From positions 29,273,223 through 29,337,222 of the forward strand of contig CAIIXF020000002.1 in NCBI GenBank assembly GCA_903813345.2: 64,000 nucleotides of DNA. The letters run 5' to 3'. The translations under genes and the position numbers were made by a program. The notes beneath the pieces were generated by a model. The model was not told the origin of the DNA, did no database searches, and saw nothing but the letters and a program-made list of their open reading frames with translations. Positions within the stretch are counted from its first letter, which is position 1, and each line of letters opens with the position of its first letter. Of the stretch, positions 9,563 to 32,999 are shown piece after piece. This stretch comes from Owenia fusiformis (taxonomy: Eukaryota > Annelida > Polychaeta > Sabellida > Oweniidae).

Positions 9563-11177
9563 CTATGAAACTGCAAATGCCCCAAAGTAGCATGTAGAAT
9601 TATCAATTTTAACAGATCTTGCCATGTCTTTATGATGGCCTGAAAGTACCCCCAGTCGAATTGTGGAACCTCGTTTTAATCTAACCACGCCACCTATATA
9701 GTTTGTATTGTAATTCTCCACAATATTTGAACTTTCTGGATGTCCTGGGGCAGACCGTGAACACATTACAGGTCGTTCTCTACAGCTGATACTTTTACAA
9801 GGACGCTCATAGGTGTCAGCCACGTACAAACAGTGGCCCATCTCAATGTTCTGAGCGTGGAAGAATACCTGCCCGTAGATGTAATAATTTCTCGTGTATT
9901 GAATGCCGATGTAAGTCTCGATTGAGCCACGTCGCCGTCCTATGTGTGGCGAATCAGTGTAGAGTTTTATATTAGACCTTGATTTCGCAGTCCAATTACA
10001 CTGAATATTTCCTACAAAGAATAGAACTAACTTATCAAATATTTCAGAAGTAAATGTAGCTTAAGCTTTTATTACAAAAAAAATATTTAAAAAGTAAGTA
10101 AAAAGTAACATTATTTCCTGATAAACCACATCATTTCATTATACATCGGGTTATATAGCATTTTTGAAAAAATGCGATGCATTATTTATTTCAAATTTGA
10201 TATTTTTCTCGTACAAATCTGTTCTAAATACGCTACCAAAATAAGGCAATAGTTGGCCTGTATCAGTGGAAAAGATTGGTTTATCATTATTTGAATATTT
10301 CTGTACTGTATTGGTTTCAATGAGAACTAAAATTTTAAATGAAATTTTCTCAGAACACTTTTTACACAGATGGAGTGGTCTAAGCAAAAAACATTTCTTA
10401 CCATTTAAATCAAACCCTCCTGTTATAGCATAGGGACTTTCCATCACTGGTTCTACATGTATGTAGACTTTCTGGAAATAAAAAAACAGGGTTATCCCAA
10501 CTGGAGAAGATAATGTTGGGATCAACAAAAGGTTCACTTAGGTCTAGCCCTCATATTTTATCTAATTTAGTAGAAACACACGAATGTTACAATATTCTAT
10601 GGCCACTGTACATGTACTGTACATGTATGCACTGCAATTTTAAAGAGAGTTGCATCAATTTTTTAAAATTCAAAACAAATCTTTAAAAAAGATTTGTCTT
10701 GCCTTGCTTATGTCACGATCGCACCCCTCATACTAAACCCCCCCCCCCAAAAAAAAAAAAAAATTGGCGTTCACACCCCTCCTGACTGACGCTGCCTACA
10801 TGTACGTCCCTGCACCCCTGTATTGTGAAATTGAGACTCCGAGTAACATAAACATAACGGGTATTTCTAGTTAGGCCTCTCTCTCATTATACTGAATCAC
10901 TAACCTTATCTTTCTTGGATTTTTTCGTTCCGCGACGAACCCTCCACCTTTTGAGCTTCTCGCTAAAGTTATAACCATGTTTACGCGTCCTGTTATTTGC
11001 TTCTGCATTTGTACGAGCAAGAAATGTCAATAGCTGCGGTTTCGAAATCAAATAATGGGATTCCCCTCGTCGTTTCTCAAGAGTTTGGATCCCATCATCT
11101 TCATCCCGGATCGTATTCTCAACCTGGTTGATATGTGATGCAGATAAAACTGCAAACAGGATCCATTTAAAAATCAT
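9563..11177 (-). CDS. TNF-superfamily ligand with furin site (EDA/TWEAK/APRIL-like), 3 exons
   Basis: Three minus-strand exons join in phase: 11177-10905 (donor gttagt), 10471-10402 (acceptor tttccag, donor gtaag) and 10011-9563 (acceptor ttgtag, stop TAG). The product is 263 residues. Residues 3-14 are hydrophobic (signal peptide or short type II anchor). A basic stretch at 76-91 contains RVRR at 79-82, a furin consensus, so a soluble ligand is probably released. Exons 2 and 3 form a TNF homology domain. Diagnostic are NYYIYGQVFFHAQ in the central strand, YIGGVVRLKRGSTIRLGV near the end and the C-terminal CYFGAFAV, matching the family's Y-x-Y-x-QV, G-x-x-x-L-x-x-G and YFG-A/L motifs. A cysteine-rich loop (HC, PC, SC, MC) lies between them. 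Furin-cut ligands such as EDA, APRIL and TWEAK are the nearest types; the exact subfamily is uncertain. The gene faces away from two receptor-like genes on the other strand. Confidence 0.87.
10735..10766. repeat. Poly-C/poly-A tract
   Basis: A run of Cs followed by a run of As, in intron 1 of the TNF-like ligand gene. Confidence 0.8.
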
Positions 11178-13476
11178 ATTTGAAAAATACTAAATTCATT
11201 AAATATTCACATCTTATTTCTTGAAGAGCTATCTTGGTCCCCTGACACCCTAAACGCTAAGATAAGATGACTACCCATCCTTCTCAATTCAAGCCACGTG
11301 GCCATTCTTAACCAATACGATGCCAAGCTTCTTCACTTGGTTGTCTGTATTTTCAGTGCCATCGAGTGTAACTTAGGAGTATTGATCCAGGTGATTATTT
11401 GTATTTCAAGGTGCAAATGGATTATGTGTCATCGTGACAATGAAATCCCAGGAATATAAAATACAAACGCAACCTTCAACCTCGTATAAGAGTGAAACTT
11501 GGCATTTCTCCACTTGCCATGACGCCAATTGCAAATAACAGCTTTTTCAAAATATTGACTTTTTTAAGCCCAATGCCCGGGGTCCCATGATTACATAGTT
11601 CTCATACAACCAATAGTTTAAAACAGATAGACACATTTGTTAAAGAAAAAACAACTTTTTGTATTATTTATTTCATTTCAGTTTAACTTCTTACATTTTA
11701 CAGCAACCTTCAAAAACTTATTAAAGAATACCTTTAGTGATATATACCAGAAACGAAAGTAATGTCATATCTTCGTTTCTTAGAAATACAATTCAAAAGG
11801 TATTGTAAGGACAATATTGTCCCAGAGAATGAATAAATCTTGTAAATCTTAAATGAACACATTAACTTTCAAAATTTCAAGTGGATTTTGATTTGTTGTT
11901 GAAAGTTGTTGAAAAGGGGGTACGAACTCATGTAATGTGGGTCATCTACAAGTTCTCAGAATTAAGCTGTCTATTAGCGTCCCTGCTGGCTGTAACGTTC
12001 TTTATTTATCAACATTCACGCGTCTCATTTTAATAAACACATAAGTGAAATACACAACAGCTCAATATTACAAGGGCGTTACAATACCCGGGAATTTATC
12101 GGTTCGTCCAGTACTTGTTTGTGATAGCGCCCTCTGTAGGTCACTGTGCTTATAGCCTACAGTAATACGGGGTAGGATATCGGGAATTCGGTCAGTTTCT
12201 ATCCGTCGATTTCGCTATGAATTGAAAAGTGTGACCACTTTATCCACTTAAACAATTTGATAATTGATTAAATCTTTAAACAAAATCGATAAACACGTTA
12301 TACACTTCCTATCTCCTTAGAAATTAGCATGTATTTATGGATTGTGTTTTCGAACAAGGCTCGACCCACCCCAATAGGGAAATCCTTATGCTAATTAGTA
12401 TGACGTCATATTTTCCTGGGGAATCCTAGATTTCAAGGCCTCAGTCTGTTATTGTGTCAAATGTAAACGCTCTTGGGACGCTCTTTTGCAGACAGAAAAT
12501 TGACAGATTAGCTTTTAACTTTCAGCTTTGATGTTTAAATATTCTGTATTTCTACCGGACTTCTTGCTGAATATCATATAATGTTATAACTTGATTTGGA
12601 TCATTGCCTGATTGATCATTCTGAAATTTTGATTGTGATTCATGATTGATTGGCAAGAAAAATAATTCCTATTGTTTTCCAGCGAAGTCAAAATGTTACA
12701 GCATGAGTTATAATGTCGAGTTTGCATCATGTTAAATTCTGCTAGTGATTAGAAGTCCATGCACAAGCATACACATAAGAGACAAACACACCCAGGCTCC
12801 AGGCCGTGGATGGAAATATAAAACTATTTAAGGCACAAACTGGTATTAATAGACCGATATGTAGTGTCTGCCATGTATTGAAGGTAAACCAATCTGTATT
12901 ATTAATGTTTCTTCTATCAATACATGGGTTGTGCAATAGAAAAGCAATGGCACAATCAAAAATGTGCATATCAATCGTGAATATCTCTCGGTTCAAAGCT
13001 TATTTCCAACAGAATCGTGTCAAAATATGTGTCTGAGTAACAGTTATACATTATAAGATCGCAAACTCTTACCAATTATCAGCCGAATGGCTCATTTTCA
13101 ACGAAATGTCCTTAAGACAACAGCCCTGGGTCGCGCCTGAGACCAAAAACTACTTCAAATAGCCCTCCCCTAATTATATTGGATAATCACATTTATGCGT
13201 GCGCGCGCAGCTCATCCAATGAACGAAACGCCACTTCCCGCTGAAATCACCGGGTATTGATCTTTCCCTTGAATATTACAGCACTGTTGCAAAATAAGAA
13301 GGTCTACTTGACAACCTATATAAGGAATGACATCATTTAGCATCATAGTGACGTCATGCAAGTCATGGCGTTTAATCGCAATAATTGTAAGTAGGTTAAA
13401 TCCGAATTCGGAGCACCAATATAAGAAATGCACCTCTGGCCTATATTGAAGTCTAATCATATCCTATTTTTTACAG
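11178..13476. other. Divergent intergenic region between TNF-like ligand and receptor gene 1
   Basis: Must contain the ligand promoter and, if gene 1 is functional, its promoter and signal-peptide exon. I saw no ATG exon ending in phase 0 with a convincing donor. A donor-like gtaaac at 12884 is preceded by an open frame but no in-frame ATG. A dispersed gcgccctctgtaggtcac motif lies at 12130. 13199-13209 is a GCGC-rich palindrome. Confidence 0.4.
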
Positions 13477-14845
13477 GTAGTGATAGGCGGTGTCCCCGTA
13501 CCAGAGAAACAAATCGAATCAAAATGCAGACCATTTTCTGAGTTTTTACTGGTTAAAAAAGACGGATCTGTAAGATGCCATGCGTGTTCACGATGTCCAG
13601 TGGGAAAGTGCGTTGAAACTCACTGTTCTGGATACATCAATACCAAATGCAGAACACCAGAGGCAAATGAATATCTCGCTGGTGATGTGTGTATGCCATG
13701 TACGGACTGTGGAAATCGACGAATAGTTCAGCTTGGGTGTAGCTCAAACTCGGACACAAAATGTGGAGGCTGTAAATCAGGTAGCCTCATGTAATTCTAT
13801 GCATGTTTACGACAAATAATGTAATGATCACGGGCATTTGGTTTCGTTATTTACACTATTGACTTTCATAATTGTAGGAATCCGTGAAAAAGATAAATAA
13901 CAGTGATTTTTTAAGATGTGTTTGCATCATTCTACAAATTATGGCTTTAAATTATCTCATGAATGTGGTTACCATGTAATAAGTACAACAACAAAGTGTT
14001 TCATTCTTAGAGTACTATTGGGACGAAATGGTTGAAGAATGCATTCCAATTTTTCATGAAACTGAATCGGATACAACGGCAGCTCATCCTTCACATTTGT
14101 CCACGCTTATTTAAGACCCGACAAAGCAACACTTGCTTTTTTTCAGCCGACTACTGGGAAACAAGGTGAGCATTTATTTTAAATAAAAAACTGGAATTAT
14201 TAATATAGTCATATAGATATAGAGTGTTGACCGTGGACACCGATCCACGAAAGCCGAATACAATTTTTTTTTAAAACTTTGGTCAAAATAACTTGTCACC
14301 ACTTTTCGTGTTGAAATAAAAACGGCGAGGCATTAACATGCAGAATGTCACTACCTGTCATTTGTTACAGACGCCGAAGACCAACCAACGTCCTTAAAAG
14401 TTATAACAAAGAGTGTATAACAATATGTCACCACCCGTCATTATTTACAGACGCTATTCGCCGACTGCCAAATTTCGAACGCTGACCAGCAGAACACCGT
14501 CCACAAATTGTCAGAGACTAGAACAATATCACACAAAAAAAACATTCATTTGGACCTTCTCTTACTTACGAACGAATGCAGGTCTCCTGCAGATCCAGCA
14601 TTGATAAATGTTGTAAAGATGAGTAGGTTGTTGTTGATTGTTTTTACTATTCAGGTGAAACGACACATCCATCCTCTGCTGGTGTAATCGTTCTCTCAAT
14701 AGTGATATCTCTTGGTATTATCATATTTATTGTAAGTATTATAACGTGTGTTCGTCTGAAGCAAGTTTCCAAAATATGCGATGGGATCACCGATCTTCAG
14801 GAAACGAACCTACGGTACAGCCCCATGTTTAACAACAGGCAATGA
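13477..14845 (+). CDS. TNF-receptor-superfamily-like gene 1 (5' exon not located)
   Basis: Exon 13477-13780 (acceptor ttttttacag, phase 0 in, phase 1 out, weak donor gtagcc) encodes about 101 residues with two cysteine-rich modules. The second reads C-x2-C-x2-C-x9-C-x8-C-x2-C around CMPCTDC and DTKCGGC, the classic TNFR pattern. Exon 14655-14845 (acceptor ctattcag) encodes a Thr/Ser stalk, a membrane segment of about 24 residues (AGVIVLSIVISLG onward), a basic stop-transfer and a tail of about 30 residues ending in TGA. Between them an exon at 14011 (acceptor ttcttag) starts YYWDEMVEEC, clearly homologous to YQWDFMLEEC of receptor gene 2, but reaches TAA at 14112-14114. Exons 13477-13780 and 14655-14845 are phase-compatible without it. 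So this is either a gene with soluble and membrane isoforms or a decaying copy. No signal-peptide exon could be placed upstream. The tail has no death domain. Confidence 0.72.
14011..14114 (+). CDS. Juxtamembrane exon of receptor gene 1 with in-frame stop
   Basis: Follows a good acceptor (tcattcttag) and continues phase 1 from the cysteine-rich exon: E-Y-Y-W-D-E-M-V-E-E-C, then 24 Ser/Thr/His-rich residues and TAA. The matching exon of gene 2 (25407-25586) runs 60 codons to a donor instead. I see no donor in the correct phase before the stop. Inclusion would give a secreted receptor without a membrane segment; skipping would give the membrane form. It may instead be a disabling mutation. Confidence 0.6.
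14220..14520. repeat. Relative of the tgtcaccac element in intron of receptor gene 1
   Basis: Contains cttgtcaccacttttcg, gaggcattaacatgcagaat and a second tatgtcaccacccgtc, the same landmarks that flank the minisatellite element at 43327-44609. Probably a rearranged or partial copy without the satellite. Confidence 0.5.
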
Positions 14846-16065
14846 TGAACGTTCATAGAACCAAACATGGAGGGAACATTGTTTCTTAAGATCTTGATGA
14901 CCTCATGAAGATGCTTAACAGTTAGGGCTCAAAATTTATTTGGAACAAATGGGTTAAAAGGACATTATCGACTCTTATATTAATCATATTATATTATATT
15001 TTTATATTATTATATCATACATGTATAAAGTGTATTTTATTTTTATAATTTGATACTATTCTTAACTATAATATGTTTGTTTATTTGTTATCCATTTGGC
15101 AACATTGATCCAAGTTATTATGAACAATTCGAAGCTCTATATAAAAACGTATTAGTATTGGGTACGGGTAGCACTTCTTTTGCGCGATTTCGGGGTCCAT
15201 GCTGGTTAAATCATCCCAGGACACATTCCTTATCTCCACCCTATACAGACTGTGCTATAGAAAAATAAGCGGTGTGGATATCATGTGCGCAAGGTGCGGA
15301 TATTAACGGTCATTTTTAATTTTAATTTGTAATATTTCATAGACTAAGTCTGCATAGAGTGATCTCATCAAGAAAAATATTTCAGCGTTTTCGTAAAACA
15401 TCTTAGTTTTATCCTCTAGGACTACAAACATGGAAACATTGAAAAATACATTGAAAACGGGTAAATAATTCCAAGTACATGTTTTACTGAATACATCTAA
15501 ATCTCTCTAGTGGACACCATTTCATTCGCAGGACTGACTCCTGATGTATCAACTACCCTCTCTGTAATGAACATCTACCTAAAATTTTTGGCTCGATAGT
15601 TGATTACTGTACACAGGTTTTATTGTATATCACAAATTATCCTAATTTTCTGAATGTATTCACACACATACCGATCGAAAGATTTTAAGTACTAGTAAAA
15701 TGGTTGCTTGAAACAGCAGTTGGTTGTTAAGAAAATGTGAATTTACGTGAGGCTTATTCATACATTTAAGTTAAGAAGAATTGGCTCATAAATGAAAGCA
15801 GGAAGTTGTTTTATGCCTAGTTTCTCAAAAGACTTTAAATAATTTATGAATAGAGAACGAAAGTATTACCTCAAAATGACGACAAAATCATATTTCATTT
15901 CAAACAGCATATTTCCTGGTATCATCAATTTAGCTCTATAATTCTGAGAATATATTTATATCACAGAGTGTTATGCAAGTCAAAACAATGAAATATCTGT
16001 GCTGCATACAGTGGCTCTTTGTCTTGTAGGCTTTTGTGGTATTAGCTGTTTTCATCAGTAAAGGA
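14846..16065. other. AT-rich intergenic, no gene seen
   Basis: 15420-15475 shares catggaaacattgaaa and acgggtaa blocks with 32070-32095. No coding frame with supporting motifs. Confidence 0.35.
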
Positions 16066-16355
16066 TGATTCTCGGTTTGGAGAACGAAGTTCATCACTCT
16101 AATAGAGCGCTATCCCTGCTTCGGACAAATTTGATTTTTTTACATAATATAGATTTGAATGTCTTCTTTTGAATAGACATAAATTAATTTGAGTAATATT
16201 TCTAGATTTTCCATAAACAAATTACTAGTGAACCACCCAACGTCGCTTCTATGATTCGTACTACTTTTTTAACTTGATGTATTGCATATTTTCGTGGGTC
16301 GATTTAAAAAAAAATACAAACGACGTATACATGAATATGTCATAAGCATATCGTG

Positions 16356-19204
16356 AGATAATTGTTAGATTAGGTTTGCTATAAGTGACTTTAAAACAAA
16401 AAAATAAAAAACATTAGTTCACGTGTTAAAGTTCCATTGACCGTGACATCAAGGAAAATTGAGCTTTTTGTCATCAGACATCTTTATAGATGGAACTAGC
16501 TATGTACTACATTTTCAAATACACTCACATAGAACATATCTAAGATGTTCTTTTTATCGATGAAAAGATTCTTACATTCGGAAGTTACATTAAAATATCA
16601 ATTGCAATAGCCGCCTGTTTTTAACATCCCTTTGTCACTCATCCCTTAATTATCTCTGTGTATCCATTCTGATACTCATAGCATCTTTCTGTTTCACCTG
16701 AAACATCTCAGGGCTGAGAAGAAATGAGATGTCATGGTTTATCATGATGCTGTGTATCTTATACTTGTGTGTGTTCGATTTTGATAGCACCCGAGTGCAA
16801 TCTAAGGAGCACATACAATACATTTTGTGTATGCCCAGTCTGGTCTTATATCTGCCTGCTCCGAGGAATTTTGGTGGCGATTTTTTGATTTTTGTAATAG
16901 CCTACTACATAGCATCTCTTGTGCGCGTAAATCCCAATGTTTTGAAATAGAAAATAAAGACTCAATTCTATATCGATAGTTTCACAGATGAGGGTAGCGA
17001 ATGGGCGCAGCTTTGACGATCAACGAATGATATAACGATATCACGGATTTCACCGAATGTTATATTCATCCCTAAATAGCTTATTTATTTAGTCTTAAGA
17101 TCCTTGTGATGTTTCTATTCATTGCAGTGACTCTGAAATTGCTGTGCCAGATATGACGTCACAGCGACTCATTTTCCAACATTTAAGCATTTAACTAAAT
17201 AATTGAAATATAATTATTAAAGAATGAGGACCTTGTGTTTCACTCTGGACGAGGGGGGCCATGTCTCGGCTAGTTGTGCATTAACGTTTGATATTTTGTG
17301 GATAAAAATAATGAATATATGTTAACGTAGCACTAAGCAGATACTTTTAAAGAATATAGTTACACTTAAAGAATAGGTCCAACGAATAGATATTGAATAT
17401 AGGACTCGTTTGATGAACGATCGTTGTAATAGTTCTAATAAACCTATAGAAATGAATCAACGATTAAACTGTATTCCAACAGACTCTTAACTCATTCTAT
17501 TTGTTCATTAGTGGCAAAATAAGATTTCCCGGGAAAAAACATGACGTCACGAATAGAACCGGTTATGGATTTTTATCGGCAATGCGTTATGCAACTCGAA
17601 TGTAAATTCAAAAGTGTTCATGTTATACCGTGTTCTGATTGGCCAGAAAGGAGTAACACTTACCGAAATCACCTCATGGTTCAATGCCTTTTGGTTACAA
17701 GATTTTAGACGCCTTATGTTAGGTAATACTATCAACTGAGCGTGTTTATTTTCTATATTGTGTTCTGACTGGCCAGAAAGTAATTCTGCATGACTAGCTA
17801 TGTGAAAACGTACCGCTGGGTCGGAGGCTCTAATTTAGGTATTATTTTTTTTGGTTTATCGGAGGAAAAAACGTGACTCCAAAGTAGTCATCTCTGAATC
17901 AATTCCTCACTTCAATGAATGCAGTTGCAATCAATTACACTAACACTTTATAAGCACGTTCGGAGATTATGAACTCCAACAACATATTCTAAACCCGTGC
18001 TGTTCGTGATGACATGATAGAGATTTGAAATTGTGTTCCCGATTTTGAACATTAAATTTCACATTTATAAAAATGTTTACAAGAACGGTTACTGGTTCGA
18101 CATGTTAGTGGTATTTACTTCATTTAGAACGTGTATAAACTGTATTTTGACCCCATGAGCATCGAACAGACACTTTAAGTTAATTGAAAGACTTCGTGTT
18201 CAAGTTAACTGAATTTCGTGTAACTTAACTCTGTTATGTTTCTAGATTTTACTTGTGGAGAACAGAAATCATAATCACAATCGTATTTTAAGGCAAATAG
18301 GCCATGCATATGCTTTGAGTTACACGGTGAATGATCAAATTAACATATTTTGGATGTTGAATTTCATTTCAAGTTCATTCGAATTTTACGCATTATCCAA
18401 TAAAATTAATGTATACTGTCTAGGCTGAGACTAACATATATATGTTATTTAATGTATTTACAGGATATATCTGAGAAGGTTATACATGTATAATATATCT
18501 ACAAGAGGAACAGTGGGGACCGAGGGTTCATATATTACCTTTACCTGTCGAAAATCGGGCATTTATAACTGATTTATTTGTAAATTATGAGGATTAGATA
18601 CGCATTGAATGTAAGTTATTGAGGTGTTAGAAAAACAAACTTACAAACAAACCACCGAGTTTAGACATATTATTACATGTATTGTCCTATTATCAAATCA
18701 TATATTGTATTCTATTTCTAAAACGTTAACAGTTTATGGTGTACAATAAAACTATTACTATGAACCACTTTGATACATTTAGACATAAAATATCAAGTTA
18801 CTCATCAGCCAACAAATCACAAAATATCGAAAAATGAAAAATACGAGGTACTTGTTCACTCAAATCTTGCAGTCAATTGGTAATGTATATTATATAAACA
18901 GTTCGCAAAGTAAATGAGCAAAAGCGTAACATTTGTATGTAGCATGCTTCATAAAACAAGTCAGCGTGCATTTTGTTCCTGGCACTGATTGGTTAATAAG
19001 TGAATACAATTCGTTGAATGCACGATGCACTCACAAGATTAGCAGCTGGGAAAGGCTATTCAACAAAAAGTACGCTTTCGTACTCATAAAAGGATTACCC
19101 TTTTACAACTTTGACAACTTTGAAGCATGAACTTAGAAATGTACTTACTGTTACTGTTACCCTGTGGATCCCAGGGTTTTGATATGTTCTGCGAAGTCAT
19201 GCAA
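16356..19204. other. AT-rich region, no gene seen
   Basis: 16655-16760 shares attctgatactcat with 42505-42575. Two tgttctga-t/c-tggccagaaag repeats lie at 17634 and 17760. Nothing coding is supported. Confidence 0.35.
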
Positions 19205-19610
19205 AGAAAGACCATATAGTCCATTTGTCATTTTCTGAACGTATGAATATTTAAAAGTATGATGTTTTTCTGTGTAAATACTATCATTAGGGATTATTGG
19301 AGTGATTTAGCTGGGTTGCCAAAAAAATAACTTTGGGGAAAATTTTGGTATCTATTACCATAGTAACATACCAGGTATATGGTGGTATCCCAACGCTAAG
19401 TCAATAGTCAACGCCATGTTAAGCGATTGCACCCCTCCCTAATCAGCCTACATAATTTTTTCCCCAAACAAACTTTTTCGGCAACCCAGTTAAATCACTT
19501 CAAAAAACCCTGATTATCATAAATCGACTATAAAACATCGTACTTTTAACAAATTCCAGGTTCACTATTGGATGTATAGGGGTGACAAATGGACTAATAT
19601 ACCAAAAGTA
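19205..19610. mobile_element. Hairpin MITE with nested arms
   Basis: ggagtgatttagctgggttg (19298) pairs with caacccagttaaatcacttc (19483), and outer blocks tatagtccatttgtc and gtatgatgttttt also have complements near 19590 and 19545. Confidence 0.65.
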
Positions 19611-19724
19611 TATGCCTGCAAGTCATATCTGTGACACTTTTGTATGATATGTATTCCACTTTGAACCACCATCTATTTCAATATTGTGAAAATATATATT
19701 TCCCAAATTATAAAATAAATGATC

Positions 19725-20085
19725 TTGTATTCGCGAATGCCACTAACGCCTGTCGGCTGCCGGATTAACCTACTATTTTATGGGCAATTCATTAAAATAT
19801 GAATGGAATATTGGCAGGTACTTTTAATATTTAAATGAGTTGCCCATAGAAAAGTATGTTAATCCGGTAGATGAAATCTTTCATTCCCAAATCATAGTCT
19901 TAGCTTATATTTGCGAATGCAAATAACGCCTTTCGGCTACCGGATTAACCTTCTATTTCACTGGAGACCCATGTAAATACGAATAGTACCTGCCACTATT
20001 CCATTCACATTTAAATGAGTTACTCATAGAATACTGGGTTAATCAGGTAACCGAGATGCGTTAGTTGCATTCGCGAATATAAGGT
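19725..20085. mobile_element. MITE family B, copies 2 and 3 in tandem
   Basis: 19725-19869 begins cttgtattcgcgaatgcc and ends inside a right arm. 19905-20085 is a fuller copy, from tttgcgaatgcaaataacgc to gttgcattcgcgaata. Confidence 0.65.
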
Positions 20086-20087
20086 TA

Positions 20088-20481
20088 GAGTCCATTTCAC
20101 TGTTTTATTGCGTCAGTAGAACCCCAAAAATAAGAAATCGGGAGACCATTGTGCAATAATATATGGAAAAGTAGATTCATATTGTACATGAATGACATTT
20201 GTATATTTCAGATCTTCTCGTTTTTTTGTGCAATAAGACTGTGACCTCTTGTAATTTGAAGAATTTCAGCCATGTTAATCTTATTGAAAATAACATGGCA
20301 GAGAAGCATCCATATATAAGAGGCCACACACTTTATAAGCCAAACTAGAAGCAATCCAAGTTATACAAATGTCATTCATGTACAATAGGAACATATTTTT
20401 CCATATATTATTGCATGATGATATTGTGATTTCTTAATTTTTAGGTTTTACTGACGCAATTCAACAGTGAAATGGACTAGC
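20088..20481. mobile_element. Foldback MITE abutting family B copies
   Basis: agtccatttcactgttttat at the left is complemented by cagtgaaatggact at the right. Inner arms share gtacatgaatgacatttgta and its complement. It sits between family B ends (20085 and 20487), suggesting nested insertion. Confidence 0.7.
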
Positions 20482-21443
20482 AATTGTATTCACGAATGCA
20501 AGAAACGCCTGTCGGCTACCGGATTAAACTACCTTTGCAATCGTCGGTATTTTAGCGCGGAGATAAACACCAACAGCGCTTTGATGGCGCTTTTAAGCGG
20601 CGTGCAAAGCATAATCAACTGATGTGAATTTCTGAAAATTGTGAATTAAGCTTATATCGAAAAAGCTAAAAATCCTTTGTTCATGTCACTAAAGGTTCGA
20701 AAACGTTATTACATTTTCCAGTTACTTTAGTTACCACAGTTATCCAAGGCTATTTGGGCAAATAAAATCCGTAGTTTGAGTGATCAATTCACGCTCAGCG
20801 ATACTGCATGGGGGACATGAAAAGTTGTTTATTTTCCAATAAATCCTGCCATCATTTGGTACATCAAAGAACCTGATTATTGACTAGATAAATGATGTCA
20901 AAGGTTGTAGGTAGCAATATGTCCATAACAAAGGATTAACTTATTGCTGAAATTGAAAAAGAACAACCCATGCCATCATCAATCTAGCAAATCCAAAATG
21001 ACTAATGACTCTGTTTAATGGCAACTGAAAAAAGACTGGAAACTTTTATTATATATAGCAACATACTGAACATAATCGATGGTTTCATTTTGGCAATCGA
21101 GGTTTTATTACAGATTCTTATATGATAAACCAAACAACTTTTACATTTACCAGTCGCTTATGGTAATTAGCCATACATTTCTAGGTATACGTTTTATCGC
21201 AATCGTGTCAAAATATAAATTGTATTGATAAACAGAAAAGAACACAAAAAATCATATACATGTACGGGCGCCATTTTTCTAAGGTGTTTCTAAGTGTTGT
21301 TTAATCTCTCTAGACTATCTCTCATCAACGGCTTATTGTAGATTGGTTGAACAATGAACGTGTTATTTATAGCTATAATAACCACGTTGATCGATGCTTG
21401 GGCGAATTTTAAGGTTTAAATCAGGAAGAGAGAGGTAGAAAGA

Positions 21444-21525
21444 GGCGTAATCTTGTGGCAAGTTCCTCACCTCCTACGCGCTGAATTGTGTTTCGATTCC
21501 CCGTCCATTCTCCACACCGATTTTT
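21444..21525 (+). repeat. Possible tRNA-derived SINE head
   Basis: tggcaagttcctca resembles a pol III A box. It is followed about 37 bases later by gtttcgattcccc, one change from a B box, then by a T-rich run. The cloverleaf is not intact. Confidence 0.3.
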
Positions 21526-22573
21526 TATTTTTAACTCATTGATGTATCCCTTTAAAGGAGTACAGGCTACAGTGAAGCTGTAAAGGTAGGACGTTTGTTT
21601 ATTTCCATATTTCTGAATGTAAGCTTATACTAGATTTTACATACATGTTTATTCCAAGTGTTCTACTATATATTGTATAGATTCATCAGGCAGTTTTCAG
21701 TGTATTATTAGCAGAAAATCCCCATCGACCACGTAATCACGTGGTAGGATAGAAGTGATATAAATACACCCTCTCCAGCTCACAGCAATTGACTAGCTTA
21801 TATTCACCACTAGCATAGTTCATAGCAAGTGGTGACATCTAATTAATAGATGATTAATCAATTTTATATATGACTTGTAAAATGCCAAAAATCTGAAGTC
21901 GCTCTTTTGAGAGGCCCTCTATTGGATGAATGTGTATAAAATGTCAGAGAATATCTCGAAAATGGGACACGATTTAAGAATGAATTATTTTCGAATGTTT
22001 CTTAAAAACATATTGAAAGGATTTTTTCATGATATGCTCATGACATATCCCTGTATGCTTTGTTTGTCTTTTTTCTCAAATTGACCCACGGAAATATGCA
22101 ATACATCAAGTTAAAAAAGTGGTACGAATCATAAAAGCGACGTTGGGTGGTTCACTAGTAATTTTTTGATGGGAAATCTAGAAATATTACCCAAATTAAT
22201 TTAGGACTATTCAAAAGAAGACATTCAAATCTATATTATGTAAAAAAATCAAATTGGTCAGAAGCAGGGAAAACGCTCAATTAGAGTGATGAACTTCGTT
22301 CTCCAAACCGAGAATCATCCTTTCCCATCTTGTTTCGCCCCGTTCTAAAACCACTGACAAACCCAGACGTATGAGGAAGCAGGGTGACCAAATTGCATTC
22401 ACTGATACTGTGATACAGCCATCTCTCTCTACCTGAGGCCCAGGAATACGTTAAAAATGTTTAAAAAATACCCTAGTGCATACTGAGTTGGTAATGCGTG
22501 GTGTATACATGTATATTATACTGATAGAATACTTACATGTATAAGAATAAGATTTTTTATTCATGACTATATA

Positions 22574-22747
22574 CCAGGTGTAAAAGGGTAGGTGGTCTTA
22601 TCAAATTTTGGTCCTACTCTCTATTGATTTATATGGTGACCTAATTACAATTATTTTCCTTATTATTTATACACAGTCAGGGCCAGTAAGGGCCGTAAGG
22701 AAAGGGGACCATAATCCCCAGGGGACCATAATTTCTTTTACACCGGG
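22574..22747 (+). mobile_element. MITE family D, copy 1
   Basis: Begins ccaggtgtaaaagggtaggt and ends ttttacaccggg; internal gggccagtaagggcc. Other copies, reverse orientation: 24009-24180, 36386-36531, 56257-56360. Confidence 0.8.
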
Positions 22748-23595
22748 CCTCAGCTCTCTACAATGCAGCGATAGCCATCGCTGGATGACCACGCTGCCTA
22801 TTGGTTTGAGAGGGTCTTCTTTCTTGTCCTTGTCCTTGTTGTCATCAAAGATGATGACAATGTCTGATCTGTGCCTTGTCTGTGTCACATGTTTAAGAAA
22901 GATGAGTCGATTCCTTGGGTCCAGTGACTTTCATCCTCCAGTATGTTGACTTGTAAAGAATCCCAGGTGTTGGAGGGGAATTACTCTTTGACAAGGCTGA
23001 AGTCCAGGTTGATGTTTCTTCTTCCTTTACCCTGAGTGGGTGGTTAGGAATGGATAGGGTGGTTATCTAAGATTAGGTCTATGTGTCGGTCTATTTTTTC
23101 AAGACTTAGTCATGTCACCCCTCCCTCATGTGGGCCACGAAAAATTGGGGCCAAATCAAAAACGATTTACCGCAGAAAGTTTTGACTCCTTTTGATTTCC
23201 AGGATCGCCCCTGACTAAAATTCGAAGTACCATATGCTTTAACTCACAAATGCTATCAGCGTCATTATCAACATAACATATATCATATTGATTAACTCTA
23301 GTACTTCCCAATGACTCATTTGAGTACAGTAAAACTGAATTTCGAACACATCATTAGTCCTAACATCTCTCAATATGATTTTTTTTGATCCCATCTTTTG
23401 ATCTGTCAAATACTTCCATGTTAAAAAAAACTCGAAATGTGAACGCCTGTCATTCTAAACAATGTGGCCGGTCCCAAATGGCGTTCCGATTAAACAGGTT
23501 TTACTGTGTATGTTTTTGCTAGCTAGGCTTAGGAGTAAAATAGATTTTACTCTGCAACATGGAAGTAATGTAGTATTCTAAATGTAATCGTAAAG

Positions 23596-25986
23596 ATGCG
23601 AAATAACGTAGTCATTTCCATTACTGGACGTGCATCCATTCGGATTATCATCAGACCGCTATCAGCATGGGCTGCAGTCATAGCAGTGATGGTGTTTGAA
23701 TGTGGGGTGAGTAGAGTATACGTGGATACTATATTGATTTCATGTTTAAAACGAAACTGAATGCATAGTGCATGCCATGAATTGTATAATTTATGAAAAA
23801 ATATTAACTATTCTAATATTTCGGATTGATTATTTATAATATGTAATATCAAACAGTTACCTCTATGTTTTTTTCGGAAGGAAAACAACTGATATTGACC
23901 GAAGAAGTATAGCTAGGTAGGCATCTTGTTGCAGGTCGTGGGGGGCTGATGACTGTGATGAGCAATGCGCATACACAACGAAGCTTTTCACGTGCATAAT
24001 GCAACAACCCGGTGTGAAAGAAATGATGATCCCCCAGGGATTATGGTCCCCTTTCTTAATGGCCCTTACTGGCCCTGATTGCGTATAAATAATGAGGGAA
24101 AGAGTTGTATTTAGGTCACCATATAAATCAATGGAGAGTAGGACCATAATTTGATAGGACCTCCTACCCTTTTACACCGGCAGTGAGCAGAAGCCAATGT
24201 TTAAAGCAATGTTCAGCTAAAAGGGATGCAAACAAAACAAACATCCCTGATCGGCTCTAATCTTTACAAGGCTACATAGCTAATAGAAAACGAACAGTTA
24301 TTTCACATTAACTTTTTATTTTTTGTTTTAGAATACAGTAAAATGCGAAAAAGCAACGTTAATGAAAAATACATGCAAAATGTGGAAAGAATACAAAGTG
24401 GTAACATCAGACGGACGCATACAATGTAAATCGTGTTCACATTGTGCAAATGGCGAGTGTATATCTTCGCATTGCTATGGATTCACTGATACACAATGCC
24501 GAAGTGTTGGGACGAATGAATTCATAAAAGGGGCGGTGTGTTACCCATGTACCGATTGTGGTAATAAACGAGAGCTTTTACGAGTCTGTTCTCATGATTC
24601 TGATACACAATGTGGCGGGTGTATTGAAGGTGTGTTGTGTTTTGACAATCGTTACAACAATTCATTTCAAGATGTCACGTCCTTAACGACGAATTGCGAT
24701 TTTTCAAACGACATGTATTTTGTGAATTTACAAGTAAATTGACGTACGTGGAGATGTATCGAGGCTATTCTAAGATATAATGATACAAAATACTAATGTT
24801 TTGTACTAATGTCACTGGTGATCCACTCGATTACGCTAGTTCGTTTCGGTAAAAAAATGTCGGAACCTCGAAGGTACGATTTTTCTTTTTTCCCCCTTTT
24901 TAGGCGTTGTAGGCAGGATTCCCAAAACATTTTTTATCACAAACGTGTATCAGTATCATACATTTCAGAAAATGTACATGCTTGCGAACAAATAGTTCAG
25001 AAGACAACGCAATCGTCGATTATTTCTCACTTTGGTCTTTTTTTGGTATGCGTCCGTCAAAATGTTGTTGGAATTCTGCCTACAATGCGTGAAAAAGGAA
25101 AATCAGAAAAATCGCACCTTCGAGTTTCCGACGAAAGGTAACCAGCGTAACTGAGCGGATCAGCAGTGAATGTAAGAACTAATATTGGACAATTTTCTGA
25201 TCTTAAGTAAGTGTGCGGAGACGAACTTGTAAAATTTCGCGTTTGTGTTTTTGTTATACTAATGCTCTACATGTATACACTTGTCTTCAAATGTTTGTAG
25301 TTTGTGTACATTCAACAAAGTTTGTTGGTCTTTTTTATCAATTGGAAAGACGTTCTTTACAGAGTATATGTTTTCATTCATTTGTTGTGGGAAATTATTT
25401 TTTAAGGTTATCAATGGGACTTCATGCTTGAGGAATGTCTTCTTGATCCAGAATTTAATGCTACCGCAGGCCACTATCTATCCAATAAGTCATTGCGATT
25501 GAATATTAACAAACCAGGTGGAACGGCCAATCCTGAATCACAAGACAGTGTTACGTTTGGTCCAGTGGACAGTGGACATGGTTTAGGTAACAAACTCTAT
25601 AGCTTTCTAAAAAATAATTCGTTAATTTGTTTCTCGTTCAATTAAACTATAACCATGTTTGTAAGTTGCTTATATGTTAACAATAAGCCTAATTTTCTGA
25701 TTTTCCAGATCCAGGAAACGAAATGATAATATGTTTGACGATTGCTCCTATCGCGATAGCAGGGCTTGTTGCTATTGTCATGATCGCCAAGATGAAGAAG
25801 AGCAAACGGTCTTTCACAAATGCTCAAGACAGAGACAAGGCGTCTCGTCAGAGTTTAATTGAAGGAAGTGGAAACGCTGTTTGGGTTTCAATGTGCGATG
25901 AATCGAATAAAGATGTCATTCACCAGTCAAGTAAAGTCTCACCACCACCATTGCAAAATAAATCAGATTCAGCTCTTTTGATTTGA
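23596..25986 (+). CDS. TNF-receptor-superfamily-like gene 2, type I membrane protein, 4 exons
   Basis: Four exons join in phase to 288 residues: 23596-23706 (signal peptide, donor gtgagt), 24332-24629 (cysteine-rich, acceptor ttgttttag, donor gtgtgt), 25407-25586 (linker, donor gtaaca) and 25709-25986 (membrane and tail, stop TGA). Exon 1 ends in the hydrophobic run WAAVIAVMVFECG after a long basic-polar start. Exon 2 holds two TNFR-type modules: CKMWKEYKVV to DTQC, then CYPCTDC to DTQCGGC. Exon 3 opens YQWDFMLEEC and has potential N-glycosylation sites (NAT, NKS). Residues 202-223 form the membrane helix, followed by KMKKSKR and a 60-residue Ser-rich tail ending ALLI. There is no death domain and I see no clear TRAF-binding motif. 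The exon plan matches gene 1, so they are tandem paralogues. Intron 1 carries a MITE at 24009-24180 and intron 2 another at 24813-25168. Confidence 0.83.
24009..24180 (-). mobile_element. MITE family D, copy 2 (intron 1 of receptor gene 2)
   Basis: Starts ccggtgtgaaagaaatgatg and ends cctacccttttacaccgg; reverse complement of the copy at 22574. Confidence 0.8.
24813..25168. mobile_element. MITE family A, copy 2 (intron 2 of receptor gene 2)
   Basis: Ends cactggtgatccactcgatt and gagcggatcagcagtg; flanked by aatgt on both sides. Shorter than the copy at 7343 and lacks one inner palindrome. Confidence 0.8.
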
Positions 25987-30431: not shown

Positions 30432-31688
30432 CTAATCATAATCAAACAATACAAGGTCATTCTGATAGACCGATTTTAGTCTGTATAACATGTCTTTCGG
30501 CAGATTAGCATACCCAGCTTTTTGTGTTTTTAACGGAAGGTATAGTAAATTAGTCAAGTTACTTTTATCCATACGATTAAAAATCAACTGAGTCAAATTT
30601 GATGCAATATTTGGTCCATATGGTATTTCTAACAAATCATGAATTGAGTTGGCGTCTAACGGTTCGATATACCCATGGCTGATAAAGTTTTGTACAATTC
30701 TTACAATGTATTCATTTTTAGACATACAGACTTTCAATTTTGGAAACTGAGAAAATGACCACTCGATCTCACGATTCATTGTAGCTTTTCGTAGTTCCAA
30801 GCTAGGGGTATCGGCCGTAGGAAGTCGTATTTTATCTTCTGCACCAATAGTACGCAGTACGTGCTGAATATCGTCATGGAATGTCTCCATTTTCCCTATG
30901 ATGTCGTATTTGATCAGACACGGATCACACCTGACATCAAATGGCTTCCAATGAGGATCCATGACAGTTTCTAAATGTTTTTCAGAACTTGATATAACGA
31001 AACTTAGGAACTCGGCAAATGCAACATCATAGCCACAGGCCTTGGATTTATTGCTTGGGTTTTCACGAAATCTATTGACTAAATACCGGCCAACTTTTAA
31101 CCAATAGGGAGCATTTATTGTGACAAATTTATTTTCATATGCTGAAAAAAGTCTGCTAAGAGGATCTCTGACAAATGTTACCTTTGTATATGTTCTCAGA
31201 ATTTCATCTTGCTCAGTTTCGTTAAAATCCTTTAGCGTTGGAAATTTTTCGCCATGTACACTTCCGATTAATTTGTGAGCGTAGGTTTTAAAGGGATTTT
31301 TCTCAGTTACGTTATTGAGCAATGTTTTAAGAATTGTCTTCAAAAATGTGCTTCCAACTTTGGCATTAGGGCAAAGTAGAAATTTATATTTTTTATTGAT
31401 ATACAAGTTACTATACAATGCGTCCTGATGCCTAGTTAAATCCCGATAAAATCGAGTGTGTTTTCGACATTTTTCCTGCATGAGGTTTTTTCTTTCTTGC
31501 ATTTCTTGTATTTTAATCCTTGTCTTGTTTCCATGTTGCTGGTAGTATCGCCTCAGTTTTGACAATTTAAGTATATCGGTATCATAATGATATGCCTTGT
31601 AACTTAATAGGCATATCTCGGCTACAATAAAAAGTAGTGAAGCTCCCAATAACACGTTGACTCTAGGCATCATAGTGGTGAACTGCAT
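30432..31688 (-). CDS. HNK-1-family carbohydrate sulfotransferase (CHST8-14-like), single exon
   Basis: An uninterrupted 418-codon frame on the minus strand. Residues 11-31 form one hydrophobic segment after a short N-terminus, the type II anchor of Golgi enzymes. Residues 32-100 are a basic, partly helical stem. CPNAKVGSTFLK (106-117) is the 5'-phosphosulfate-binding loop, and FVRDPLSRLFSAY (172-184) is the 3'-phosphate-binding motif for the donor PAPS. Later residues (DPHWKPF, RCDPCLIKYDIIGKMETF) match the conserved middle of the HNK-1 sulfotransferase family, which transfers sulfate to GalNAc or glucuronic acid on glycans. Length is normal for the family. The lack of introns may mark an old retrocopy or a naturally intronless lineage; the frame is intact. 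The exact substrate cannot be told. Both flanks are repeats. Confidence 0.9.
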   Translation of the reverse strand: MQFTTMMPRVNVLLGASLLFIVAEICLLSYKAYHYDTDILKLSKLRRYYQQHGNKTRIKIQEMQERKNLMQEKCRKHTRFYRDLTRHQDALYSNLYINKKYKFLLCPNAKVGSTFLKTILKTLLNNVTEKNPFKTYAHKLIGSVHGEKFPTLKDFNETEQDEILRTYTKVTFVRDPLSRLFSAYENKFVTINAPYWLKVGRYLVNRFRENPSNKSKACGYDVAFAEFLSFVISSSEKHLETVMDPHWKPFDVRCDPCLIKYDIIGKMETFHDDIQHVLRTIGAEDKIRLPTADTPSLELRKATMNREIEWSFSQFPKLKVCMSKNEYIVRIVQNFISHGYIEPLDANSIHDLLEIPYGPNIASNLTQLIFNRMDKSNLTNLLYLPLKTQKAGYANLPKDMLYRLKSVYQNDLVLFDYD

Positions 31689-32999
31689 TCTTCATTTATT
31701 ACTGCTATGAATATTGATTTATATTTTAACCCCCATTCATAGTGGGGGTAAGCTTACCGTTACGACGACTGTGGTTTCACGTTTTCATAATGGAGACTTT
31801 TACGGAGAATGTTTGCAGTTTGCTCTCTGTCGCTTGGTCAATATTCTATCGAGTAAAAATTGTAAATTCCCTCTCTATCCCCATTTTCCGCGAGTATTCC
31901 TGCCACCAGGTACATGCATTGATTTAAAATTTCTAGTATAACGTTCACATAATGTCGGTACTTTTCGGTAAATGGGTTTGATATTAGATAGATATGGGTT
32001 TGATAGTAGAGAGATTTCGCAACTCACTCAAAGCATGCTTATCATTCCCGTATCTTTACCCCCTTGGACACAAAAATGGAAACATTGAAACCGGGTAATT
32101 AATAATTTAAAGGTACAGTAAAATCTGTATTACTGAATACCTCCTTCGCACGTTTAACTTATGAAACGTTTGATTACGTCATCATTTATTACGCAGCTCT
32201 TTACGTCCATACGTTTGATATTCTTACGTATAGACGACGATCTATAAGATCATCACACTTGTGGACGTATAGAGTGACATATAATTTCTATTATTGAGCG
32301 ATATGCCAAATACCTTCAAAGAAAATACCCTTCACACAACAGAACTTTGAATATCGTAACAAAGCAACTGAACAAGCAAGAATTGCCGAAATTACCAAAC
32401 TGAAGAAGAAAGTAAATCGTACCCCTTTCCGCCATTCTATAGAGCTGTAAAGATAACGAAACTACAGTCATCTAAAAGTATACTCCAGTGTAACTTCCAT
32501 TCCTAACAAATATTAGATAACAAGCTAAGATGGAGAAATTCAACTCCTAAAAGAGAATAGGATGGGGACATTCAACCCCTAAAAATAAAAGTAAAACTCA
32601 GAAGAGAACAATGCAGCTAACTGTAGGAACCCGCTCTAGAATATCCTTGGTGCTTAGACAGATCTTACAATAGCGTGGAATGGTGAAAGAACAAATTAAT
32701 GCATATTTTTATTTATTCACCTGGCAATCATGATACTTCAATAGCATAGATACAGTTCAATAACTTGAATTGTTTATACTATAGTTATTAGAATGTGGGT
32801 TTTGAAGAAACAGAATGTATTCTATTGCTCTTTTTCTTATATTTCTTGCAATATTATTCGTAAATGTTTCTTCCCAAACAGCAAATATAGGCAATTCTTG
32901 CTTGTTTAAAGTAGTTCGTTCTGGAAATGAGAAAAAATAGAATTTGTTTTAATATTTCAAGTTTTATTTAAAAAACATAGACCGAAGAGCAGGGGTAAT
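31689..32999. other. Upstream flank of the sulfotransferase, no gene seen
   Basis: Contains a gggtttgatattagatagat/gggtttgatagtagagag direct repeat near 31975-32020 and the gaaacattgaaa block shared with 15430. No promoter element is recognised with confidence. Confidence 0.35.

Follow-up and report, generated by a model that had tools for sequence, protein, structure and literature searches.

The window, as we call the whole stretch of 64,000 nucleotides analysed here from the annelid Owenia fusiformis, holds a TNF ligand gene on the minus strand (9563-11177, by gene model and Pfam search) and, on the plus strand, two TNFR-type receptor genes without a recognisable death domain, receptor A (13477-14845) and receptor B (23596-25986). 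The ligand is placed in the TNF superfamily by its homology domain, which exceeds the curated Pfam cut-off: the last exon scores 28.7 bits against PF00229 (cut-off 23), and the joined three-exon model 27.3 bits (E 3.9e-6). Against PF00020 (TNFR_c6), the cysteine exon of receptor A joined to its membrane exon reaches 33.4 bits (cut-off 29.4), while the cysteine exon of receptor B reaches 28.7 bits; the two receptors are 46% identical. The original prediction had read from the letters alone a minus-strand TNF homology domain gene and two plus-strand TNFR-like genes with membrane exons, and had proposed an HMM search against both families. That search found the domains, confirming the ligand gene and receptor A; receptor B has a downstream membrane exon as A does, but its cysteine exon falls slightly under the cut-off. 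The ligand had also been placed head-to-head with both receptors, which holds for A and not for B, a tandem second receptor ~9 kb past A and itself not head-to-head. The extent given to the ligand gene likewise needs correction, as the gene reaches a predicted start codon at 11177, so that the spacer to receptor A is only 757 bp.

The ligand's first exon, as read from the sequence, is an open frame with a GTTAGT donor in phase 0, and judged by eye and by hydrophobicity it looks like the start of a protein with a cleaved signal peptide, as opposed to the usual type II membrane precursor. Counting the window copy, exon-1-like candidates occur in 11 of 14 ligand copies, as do counterparts of exon 2 with the motif I(H/Y)V.P (11 of 14). 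By hydrophobicity, receptor B has a signal peptide, an ectodomain and a single membrane pass, and receptor A an ectodomain and a membrane pass, its first exon being a candidate signal peptide only. Because the stalk exon of receptor A contains an in-frame stop, a membrane form would need that exon skipped, and the exon perhaps belongs to a soluble form. Structure models were too poor for use (pLDDT 54 with nine strands for the single-sequence ligand model, 50 for the receptor). The ligand model gave no Foldseek match at E 0.001 or better, and its top hits, factor XIII among them, carry no meaning.

Table 1. Features of the ligand-receptor locus, in window positions.
Feature	Position	Strand	Remarks
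Ligand exon 3, TNF homology domain, stop TAG	9563-10011	-	PF00229, E 1.4e-6; 14 genome copies
Ligand exon 2 (KVYIHVEPVMESPYAITGGFDLN)	10402-10471	-	Splice phases 0/1, read from sequence
Ligand exon 1	10905-11177	-	Signal peptide-like start (MIFKWILFAVLSAS); pro-region with RVRR and basic run GTKKSKKDK
Spacer, predicted ligand start codon to predicted receptor A start codon, 757 bp	11178-11934	.	Possible shared promoter
Receptor A exon 1, candidate signal peptide (MWVIYKFSELSCLLASLLA)	11935-11991	+	Candidate only; weak GTAACG donor
Receptor A exon 2, TNFR cysteine modules	13477-13780	+	PF00020, E 6.2e-8
Receptor A stalk exon (EYYWDEMVEEC...)	14011-14114	+	Ends at in-frame TAA, no good donor before it; sequence reading only
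Receptor A exon 4, transmembrane segment and short tail (~32 aa)	14655-14845	+	No death domain match
Receptor B exon 1, signal peptide-like	23596-23706	+	GTGAGT donor; counterpart in copy at C2:20.21 Mb
Receptor B exon 2, TNFR cysteine modules	24332-24629	+	PF00020, E 1.7e-6, just under cut-off
Receptor B exon 3, stalk (GYQWDFMLEEC...)	25407-25586	+	
Receptor B exon 4, transmembrane segment and tail (~65 aa)	25709-25986	+	No death domain match

The genome (498 Mb) contains at least 14 ligands and at least 12 receptors of these subfamilies, and two different queries per family recovered identical sets. A ligand gene lies head-to-head with nine of the 12 receptors, and no other TNF or TNFR match separates the partners; when two unplaced contigs are taken as second copies, the non-redundant count is seven of 10. 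The remaining receptors are receptor B, tandem behind a pair, and those at C2:20.21 Mb and C4:17.16 Mb, which have no ligand nearby. Five ligand copies are without a receptor of their own, and none of the three other TNF matches in the genome is near a TNFR match. Four pair places fall between 17.2 and 29.3 Mb on contig C2, with copies up to 12 Mb apart. The signal/cysteine/stalk/membrane exon plan was wholly or partly recovered in all 11 receptors scanned. The recurring arrangement exceeds chance, though the copies are related and are not independent events. Between predicted start codons, the spacers of six of the seven pairs measure 757, 1333, 888, 486, 436 and 2058 bp; k-mers shared among these six showed no excess over 60 shuffles, and a shared promoter motif was dropped as a candidate.

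That the back-to-back pair recurs at several places suggests that ligand and receptor were copied and inherited together. Imposing a single topology on the seven pairs costs 0.03 lnL when receptor B represents the window and 0.18 when receptor A does, a fit equalled by 48 and 96 of 5040 relabelings, respectively. The best tree of the set with receptor A ranks 19th of 945 for the ligands, where the KH test rejects it (0.038) but the AU test does not (0.063). The Mantel distance test is weak for either receptor (A: r 0.30, 480 of 5040 permutations as good; B: r 0.33, 352 of 5040). Both genes are under constraint, with dN/dS below 1 in all 16 computable comparisons (0.06-0.64) and at 0.06-0.29 in 11 older paralogue comparisons, 10 of which have a dS of ~1 or more. 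Taken together, recurrence, shared tree and constraint indicate that ligand and receptor were probably duplicated together, as one unit, and then kept. The co-inheritance proposed earlier is thus supported, both by the head-to-head pair at seven non-redundant places and by the fit of the two families to one tree.

Among solved structures, the ligand profile best matches BAFF (TNFSF13B; E 2.2e-7, single-domain chain), followed by TRAIL (6.9e-5), LIGHT (1.1e-4), APRIL (TNFSF13; 7.2e-4) and EDA-A2 (0.046). APRIL and BAFF have been placed in an EDA cluster (PMC7674686). The furin site of EDA is given as Arg-Val-Arg-Arg-Asn-Lys-Arg (PMC4731439), and the Owenia ligand similarly has RVRR and basic residues ahead of its domain. 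In contrast to BAFF, APRIL and EDA, it seems to have a signal peptide at its start in place of a type II membrane anchor, its domain has extra conserved cysteines, and the exons read here contain no collagen repeat. The receptor profile best matches p75NTR (TNFRSF16; E 3.9e-7), then UL144 (1.4e-5), TNFRSF21 (0.005) and CD40 (0.012). Compared with p75NTR and other TNFRs, the Owenia receptors have one cysteine exon (matched region ~87 residues) and, in most copies, a GYxWDxMxEEC-like stalk, with no death domain found. Close kinship with EDA and EDAR, prompted by features of the human proteins and judged by profile searches only, was rejected: the ligand profile is nearest to BAFF, and EDAR is absent from the 29 receptor-profile matches up to E 1.

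In humans, EDA and EDA2R lie a few Mb apart, and we know of no head-to-head arrangement of these two genes. EDA (Xq12-q13.1) and its receptor gene EDA2R (Xq12) do lie in one chromosome region (PMC4731439), and the original statement that linkage of a TNF ligand with its receptor is unusual has to be qualified to that extent; like the window genes, they place a TNF ligand and a TNF receptor in one region, but unlike them they are not adjacent and are single copy. Drosophila has one ligand, Eiger, which matches our ligand profile weakly (E 0.005). Its gene and those of Wengen and Grindelwald are not known to be linked. The latter two, as the receptors of Eiger, are reported to use JNK rather than NF-kB (PMC7674686). 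Expanded sets in oyster, amphioxus and tunicates include tandem TNF clusters, and in oyster receptors without a death domain; the portions of these accounts available to us describe clusters of ligands, not ligand beside receptor (PMC4346834, PMC12843592). Head-to-head TNF/TNFR pairs had no report in the largely open-access literature searched.

We read the window locus as one copy of a duplicated module in which a TNF ligand gene stands back to back with a short TNFR-type receptor gene and the two products most likely engage each other (probability roughly 0.7). A founding pair would have arisen once and then been copied as a unit along one chromosome, to the four places on C2 at 17.2-29.3 Mb, with purifying selection keeping both genes. 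The ligand is probably secreted and processed in the furin manner, and each ligand would most likely trimerise and bind the adjoining receptor, perhaps near paralogues too. The receptor might signal through its short tail and a so-far-unrecognised adaptor, or hold the ligand as a sink, and close linkage may keep the partners together, perhaps co-expressed from the shared spacer. The recurring pairs could form a series of signalling channels with matched partners. Among the open questions named in PMC4979521 are which ligands invertebrate TNF receptors have and what role the receptors lacking death domains play. With most receptors of one subfamily beside a ligand, the Owenia genome offers seven candidate pairings that are directly testable, and a natural experiment in how the specificities of ligand and receptor diverge once both have been duplicated together.

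In a rival reading, the linked receptors would be decoys or sinks restricting how far the adjoining ligand acts, and the signalling receptor would be one of the unlinked TNFR genes. No death domain was matched in nine membrane exons from the 12 receptors (window A and B and seven copies, one exon cut at the end of its piece), and none of the 99 death-domain matches genome-wide is in these receptor loci. The tails are 24-99 aa, and three patterns of the classical TRAF-binding motif (TRAF2/TRAF6 consensus) gave no match in nine tails, where shuffles average 0.95. The in-frame stop in the stalk exon also allows receptor A to be read as soluble. On the other hand, the TRAF scan covered those three patterns only, and XEDAR, which is not known to have a death domain, offers a counterexample. 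Its action on TRAF proteins is described as needing no adaptor (PMC4731439), so absence of a death domain does not imply absence of signalling. We regard the decoy role as a tentative possibility, somewhat short of even odds. A bolder extension of the module reading, in our view rather unlikely, is that the divergent pair is a self-contained cassette, each duplication creating a new private channel and linkage being selected since separated partners would misfire; linkage might then be old in animals and EDA/EDA2R its loosened remnant.

The linkage could also be a passive relic: the two genes would have become neighbours once by chance and been spread by segmental duplication, without being functionally tied. 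Every pair may go back to a single founding arrangement, and recurrence for that reason does not count as independent evidence; there are extra ligands and receptors without a partner, the six spacers show no excess of shared k-mers and the distance test is weak. However, since the proteins come from a known ligand family and the receptor family known to go with it, chance neighbours would be an odd coincidence, and the pair is intact at seven of 10 non-redundant receptor loci despite a dS of mostly ~1 or more and copies up to 12 Mb apart. We consider such a relic doubtful, and favour the duplicated module of engaging partners. Least probable is a fast-evolving recognition locus (allorecognition or an immune arms race) with strongly differing alleles. 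Linked ligand and receptor genes are the expected design of recognition loci, and across much of these loci the copies on contigs C483 and C92 show a DNA difference of roughly 10-16% from those on C2. Yet DNA ~18 kb away differs by 5-9%, the C483 and C2 proteins are 97 and 96% identical, and dN/dS is below 1 throughout, and we set this reading aside. A repeated element occupies the 5 kb searched at the far end of contig C92, which may be a paralogue or a second haplotype of C2:20.14 Mb and carries two identical ligand last exons, a feature that would also suit a recognition locus.

The ligand gene of the window and its neighbouring receptor belong to a repeated arrangement. Across the genome that contains the window (498 Mb in 525 contigs) there are nine pairs in which a TNF-type ligand gene lies head-to-head with a TNFR-type receptor gene, the two being transcribed away from each other with no intervening TNF or TNFR match (see the table). 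Used as a query, the window ligand recovered 14 strong matches in this genome, none with E above 1.4e-39, plus eight weak ones (E > 0.8), and a second ligand query (C2:20.18 Mb, on the window's contig) recovered the identical 14 and no others to E 1. With the window receptor as query, 12 matches were strong (E at most 1.6e-14) and three weak; the strong matches of a second receptor query were the identical 12, with four weaker besides. PF00229 and PF00020 searches yielded 17 and 22 matches, respectively, at E up to 1. These ligand and receptor counts are lower bounds, since the search scores single exons, and only the top candidates among them, and may leave gaps. If contigs C483 and C92 are counted as second copies, seven of 10 receptors and seven of 11 ligands stand in direct pairs. 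Two receptors have no nearby ligand (C2:20.210, with the closest ~24 kb away, and C4:17.155 Mb), and five extra ligands (C2 17.165, 17.171, 17.182 and 17.186 Mb, and a second C92 copy) each lie ~15 kb or less from a pair. The three remaining TNF matches (C4:8.107, 8.119, 22.651) serve as a control from the same genome: none has a PF00020 match within 3.8 Mb.

Ligand and receptor genes of the window and paired loci of the genome (ligand/receptor), with spacers from predicted start to start codon
Feature	Location	Strand	Spacer (bp)	Remark
Window ligand gene, TNF	predicted start codon 11177, stop 9563	minus		three exons
Receptor A	13477-14845; candidate exon 1 11935-11991	plus		TNFR cysteine exon
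Receptor B	23596-25986	plus		TNFR cysteine exon
Window pair	C2 29.283/29.287 Mb		757	receptor A start is a candidate; receptor B in addition at 29.298
17.175 pair	C2 17.175/17.179 Mb		2058	better receptor exon, GTGAGT donor, from 18770 of merged piece
17.73 pair	C2 17.730/17.726 Mb		1333	
20.142 pair	C2 20.142/20.145 Mb		888	
20.173 pair	C2 20.173/20.176 Mb		486	
20.179 pair	C2 20.179/20.181 Mb		436	
20.185 pair	C2 20.185/20.190 Mb			
C92 pair	contig C92		2099	
C483 pair	contig C483			

The original prediction had described a TNF homology domain in a minus-strand gene and TNFR-type cysteine modules in two plus-strand genes. A Pfam search of the ligand's last exon bore out the former (PF00229, 28.7 bits against a cut-off of 23); as to the latter, the cysteine exon of receptor A exceeded the PF00020 cut-off of 29.4 (33.4 bits), while that of receptor B fell slightly below it (28.7 bits). 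The two receptors are 46% identical across these exons, and both have, in addition, a membrane exon and short tail. Receptor B has four exons with clear splice sites (phases 0, 1, 1), and its exon 1 is flanked by inverted copies of one element (window 22584-22949, plus, and 23863-24171, minus), the frames of which begin KGR(W/R)SYQI(L/M)VLLSIDLYGDL. The candidate exon 1 of receptor A has a weak donor. Its stalk exon (window 14011-14114) terminates at an in-frame stop and lacks a good donor upstream of it, so that a membrane form would need the cysteine exon to be spliced directly to the membrane exon, a join that the phases permit. As read from the sequence, a soluble form of receptor A, ending at this stop, is possible, and the exon may serve to switch the receptor between a soluble and a membrane form. 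Across the 11 of 12 receptors scanned for further exons (C483 left out), we located a signal exon with donor in nine (receptor A's being weak), a GYxWDxMxEEC-type stalk exon in 10 and a membrane exon in 10, no one type being located in all 11.

Exon 1 of the window ligand begins with a signal-peptide-like stretch and ends with RVRR followed by a basic run; candidate counterparts with a hydrophobic start and basic end occur in 11 of the 14 ligand copies, a count that includes the window. The receptor first exon was not located for the 20.185/20.190 and C483 pairs, and an alternative receptor start for the 17.175 pair, lacking the GTGAGT donor, gives a spacer of 1794 bp. Since k-mers common to six spacers were none of them in excess of shuffles, a shared promoter for the paired genes would be possible on distance alone.

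Co-inheritance of the pair, as originally suggested, is supported by its recurrence at seven non-redundant loci and by the phylogenies. Trees of 14 ligands and 12 receptors show the same split, 17.175 and the window against the other five C2 pairs (support 98/95 for ligands, 95/94 for receptors), with several inner forks lacking resolution. For seven non-redundant pairs (C483, C92, unpaired receptors and extra ligands left out), all 945 unrooted topologies were scored per family. One topology, joining 17.175 with the window, 17.73 with 20.179, and 20.142 with 20.173 beside 20.185, fits both families at a cost of 0.03 lnL (receptor B representing the window) or 0.18 lnL (receptor A) relative to the separate best trees, a joint value matched by 48 and 96 of 5040 relabelings, respectively. 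Weighing against a shared history, the best ligand topology ranked 7th (receptor B set) and 10th (receptor A set) among the 945 for receptors; conversely, the best receptor B-set topology ranked 3rd for ligands and the best receptor A-set topology 19th, the latter rejected by the KH test (0.038) but not by AU (0.063). Ligand and receptor distances compared by Mantel test correlated at r 0.33 with receptor B (352 of 5040 permutations equally good) and r 0.30 with receptor A (480 of 5040). The tree and distance evidence for joint duplication is thus good but not overwhelming, and position and orientation argue for it more strongly than the trees.

Among 17 pairwise dN/dS comparisons, one (receptor A versus 20.145) was incomputable through saturation. 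The 11 between older paralogues gave 0.06–0.29, and in 10 of these dS was roughly 1 or higher. Five comparisons were closer: C483 versus C2 gave 0.15 for the ligand and 0.23 for the receptor, C92 versus C2 gave 0.48 and 0.13 in the same order, and the two young ligand copies, 17.165 and 17.171, gave 0.64. Both families are therefore constrained and the pairs old, which opposes a fast-diversifying recognition locus. On C483, DNA ~18 kb away from the pair matches C2:17.752-17.755 Mb at 91–95%, so this contig most plausibly represents the alternative haplotype of C2:17.73 Mb. C92 (ligand 88%, receptor 91% protein identity to the 20.14 pair) may be a haplotype or paralogue of that pair. C92:8539-20000 contains a stretch directly repeated over at least 4.7 kb (99.9% identity) that carries two ligand last exons identical in protein; the repeat is either a recent duplication or an assembly artefact.

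EDA and APRIL offer precedent for cleavage and for matrix retention through a basic run, and from them we infer that the ligand would be secreted and cut at RVRR, its basic run holding it near the matrix. Most likely, the secreted ligand would then trimerise and engage the receptor encoded beside it, the two genes perhaps being co-expressed. The main rival is that the linked receptor acts as a sink or decoy. The membrane exons tested, from nine receptors (one cut at a piece boundary), gave no death-domain match, none of 99 genome Death matches fell inside ligand-receptor loci, and nine receptor tails held no TRAF2/TRAF6 pattern. A profile of 11 ligands had as its best match, among the best 60 of 72 to solved structures, single-domain BAFF (E 2.2e-7), the BAFF-APRIL fusion chain reaching 7.6e-21 via three repeats; next among those listed came TRAIL (6.9e-5), LIGHT (1.1e-4), APRIL (7.2e-4), TNF (0.001), Eiger (0.005) and EDA-A2 (0.046). 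A profile of 10 receptors matched p75NTR best (E 3.9e-7), EDAR being absent from its 29 matches.

TNF and TNFR families and their invertebrate expansions are known already. We found no description of a repeated divergent ligand-receptor pair in the literature searched, including PMC12843592, PMC2772990, PMC7674686, PMC4346834, PMC4979521, PMC10794254, PMC4731439 and PMC9977687. Human EDA and EDA2R both lie in Xq12-q13.1, according to PMC4731439; this leaves room for an old ligand-receptor linkage without being evidence of one.

Adjoining the receptors is an intronless 419 aa open frame of the sulfotransferase family (window 30432-31691, minus; PF03567, E 4.5e-44). At 46732-49402 (minus), frames encoding leucine-rich repeats and an EF hand perhaps make up a single LRR/EF-hand gene, and a repeated stretch at 50138-53384, with locally raised G+C, has frames that reiterate YESTGGSVVECSPATRAARVRFPAS. 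The region C2:28.35-28.47 Mb, less than 1 Mb away from the window, carries four strong death-domain exons in ~130 kb, which may form a cluster of death-domain genes.
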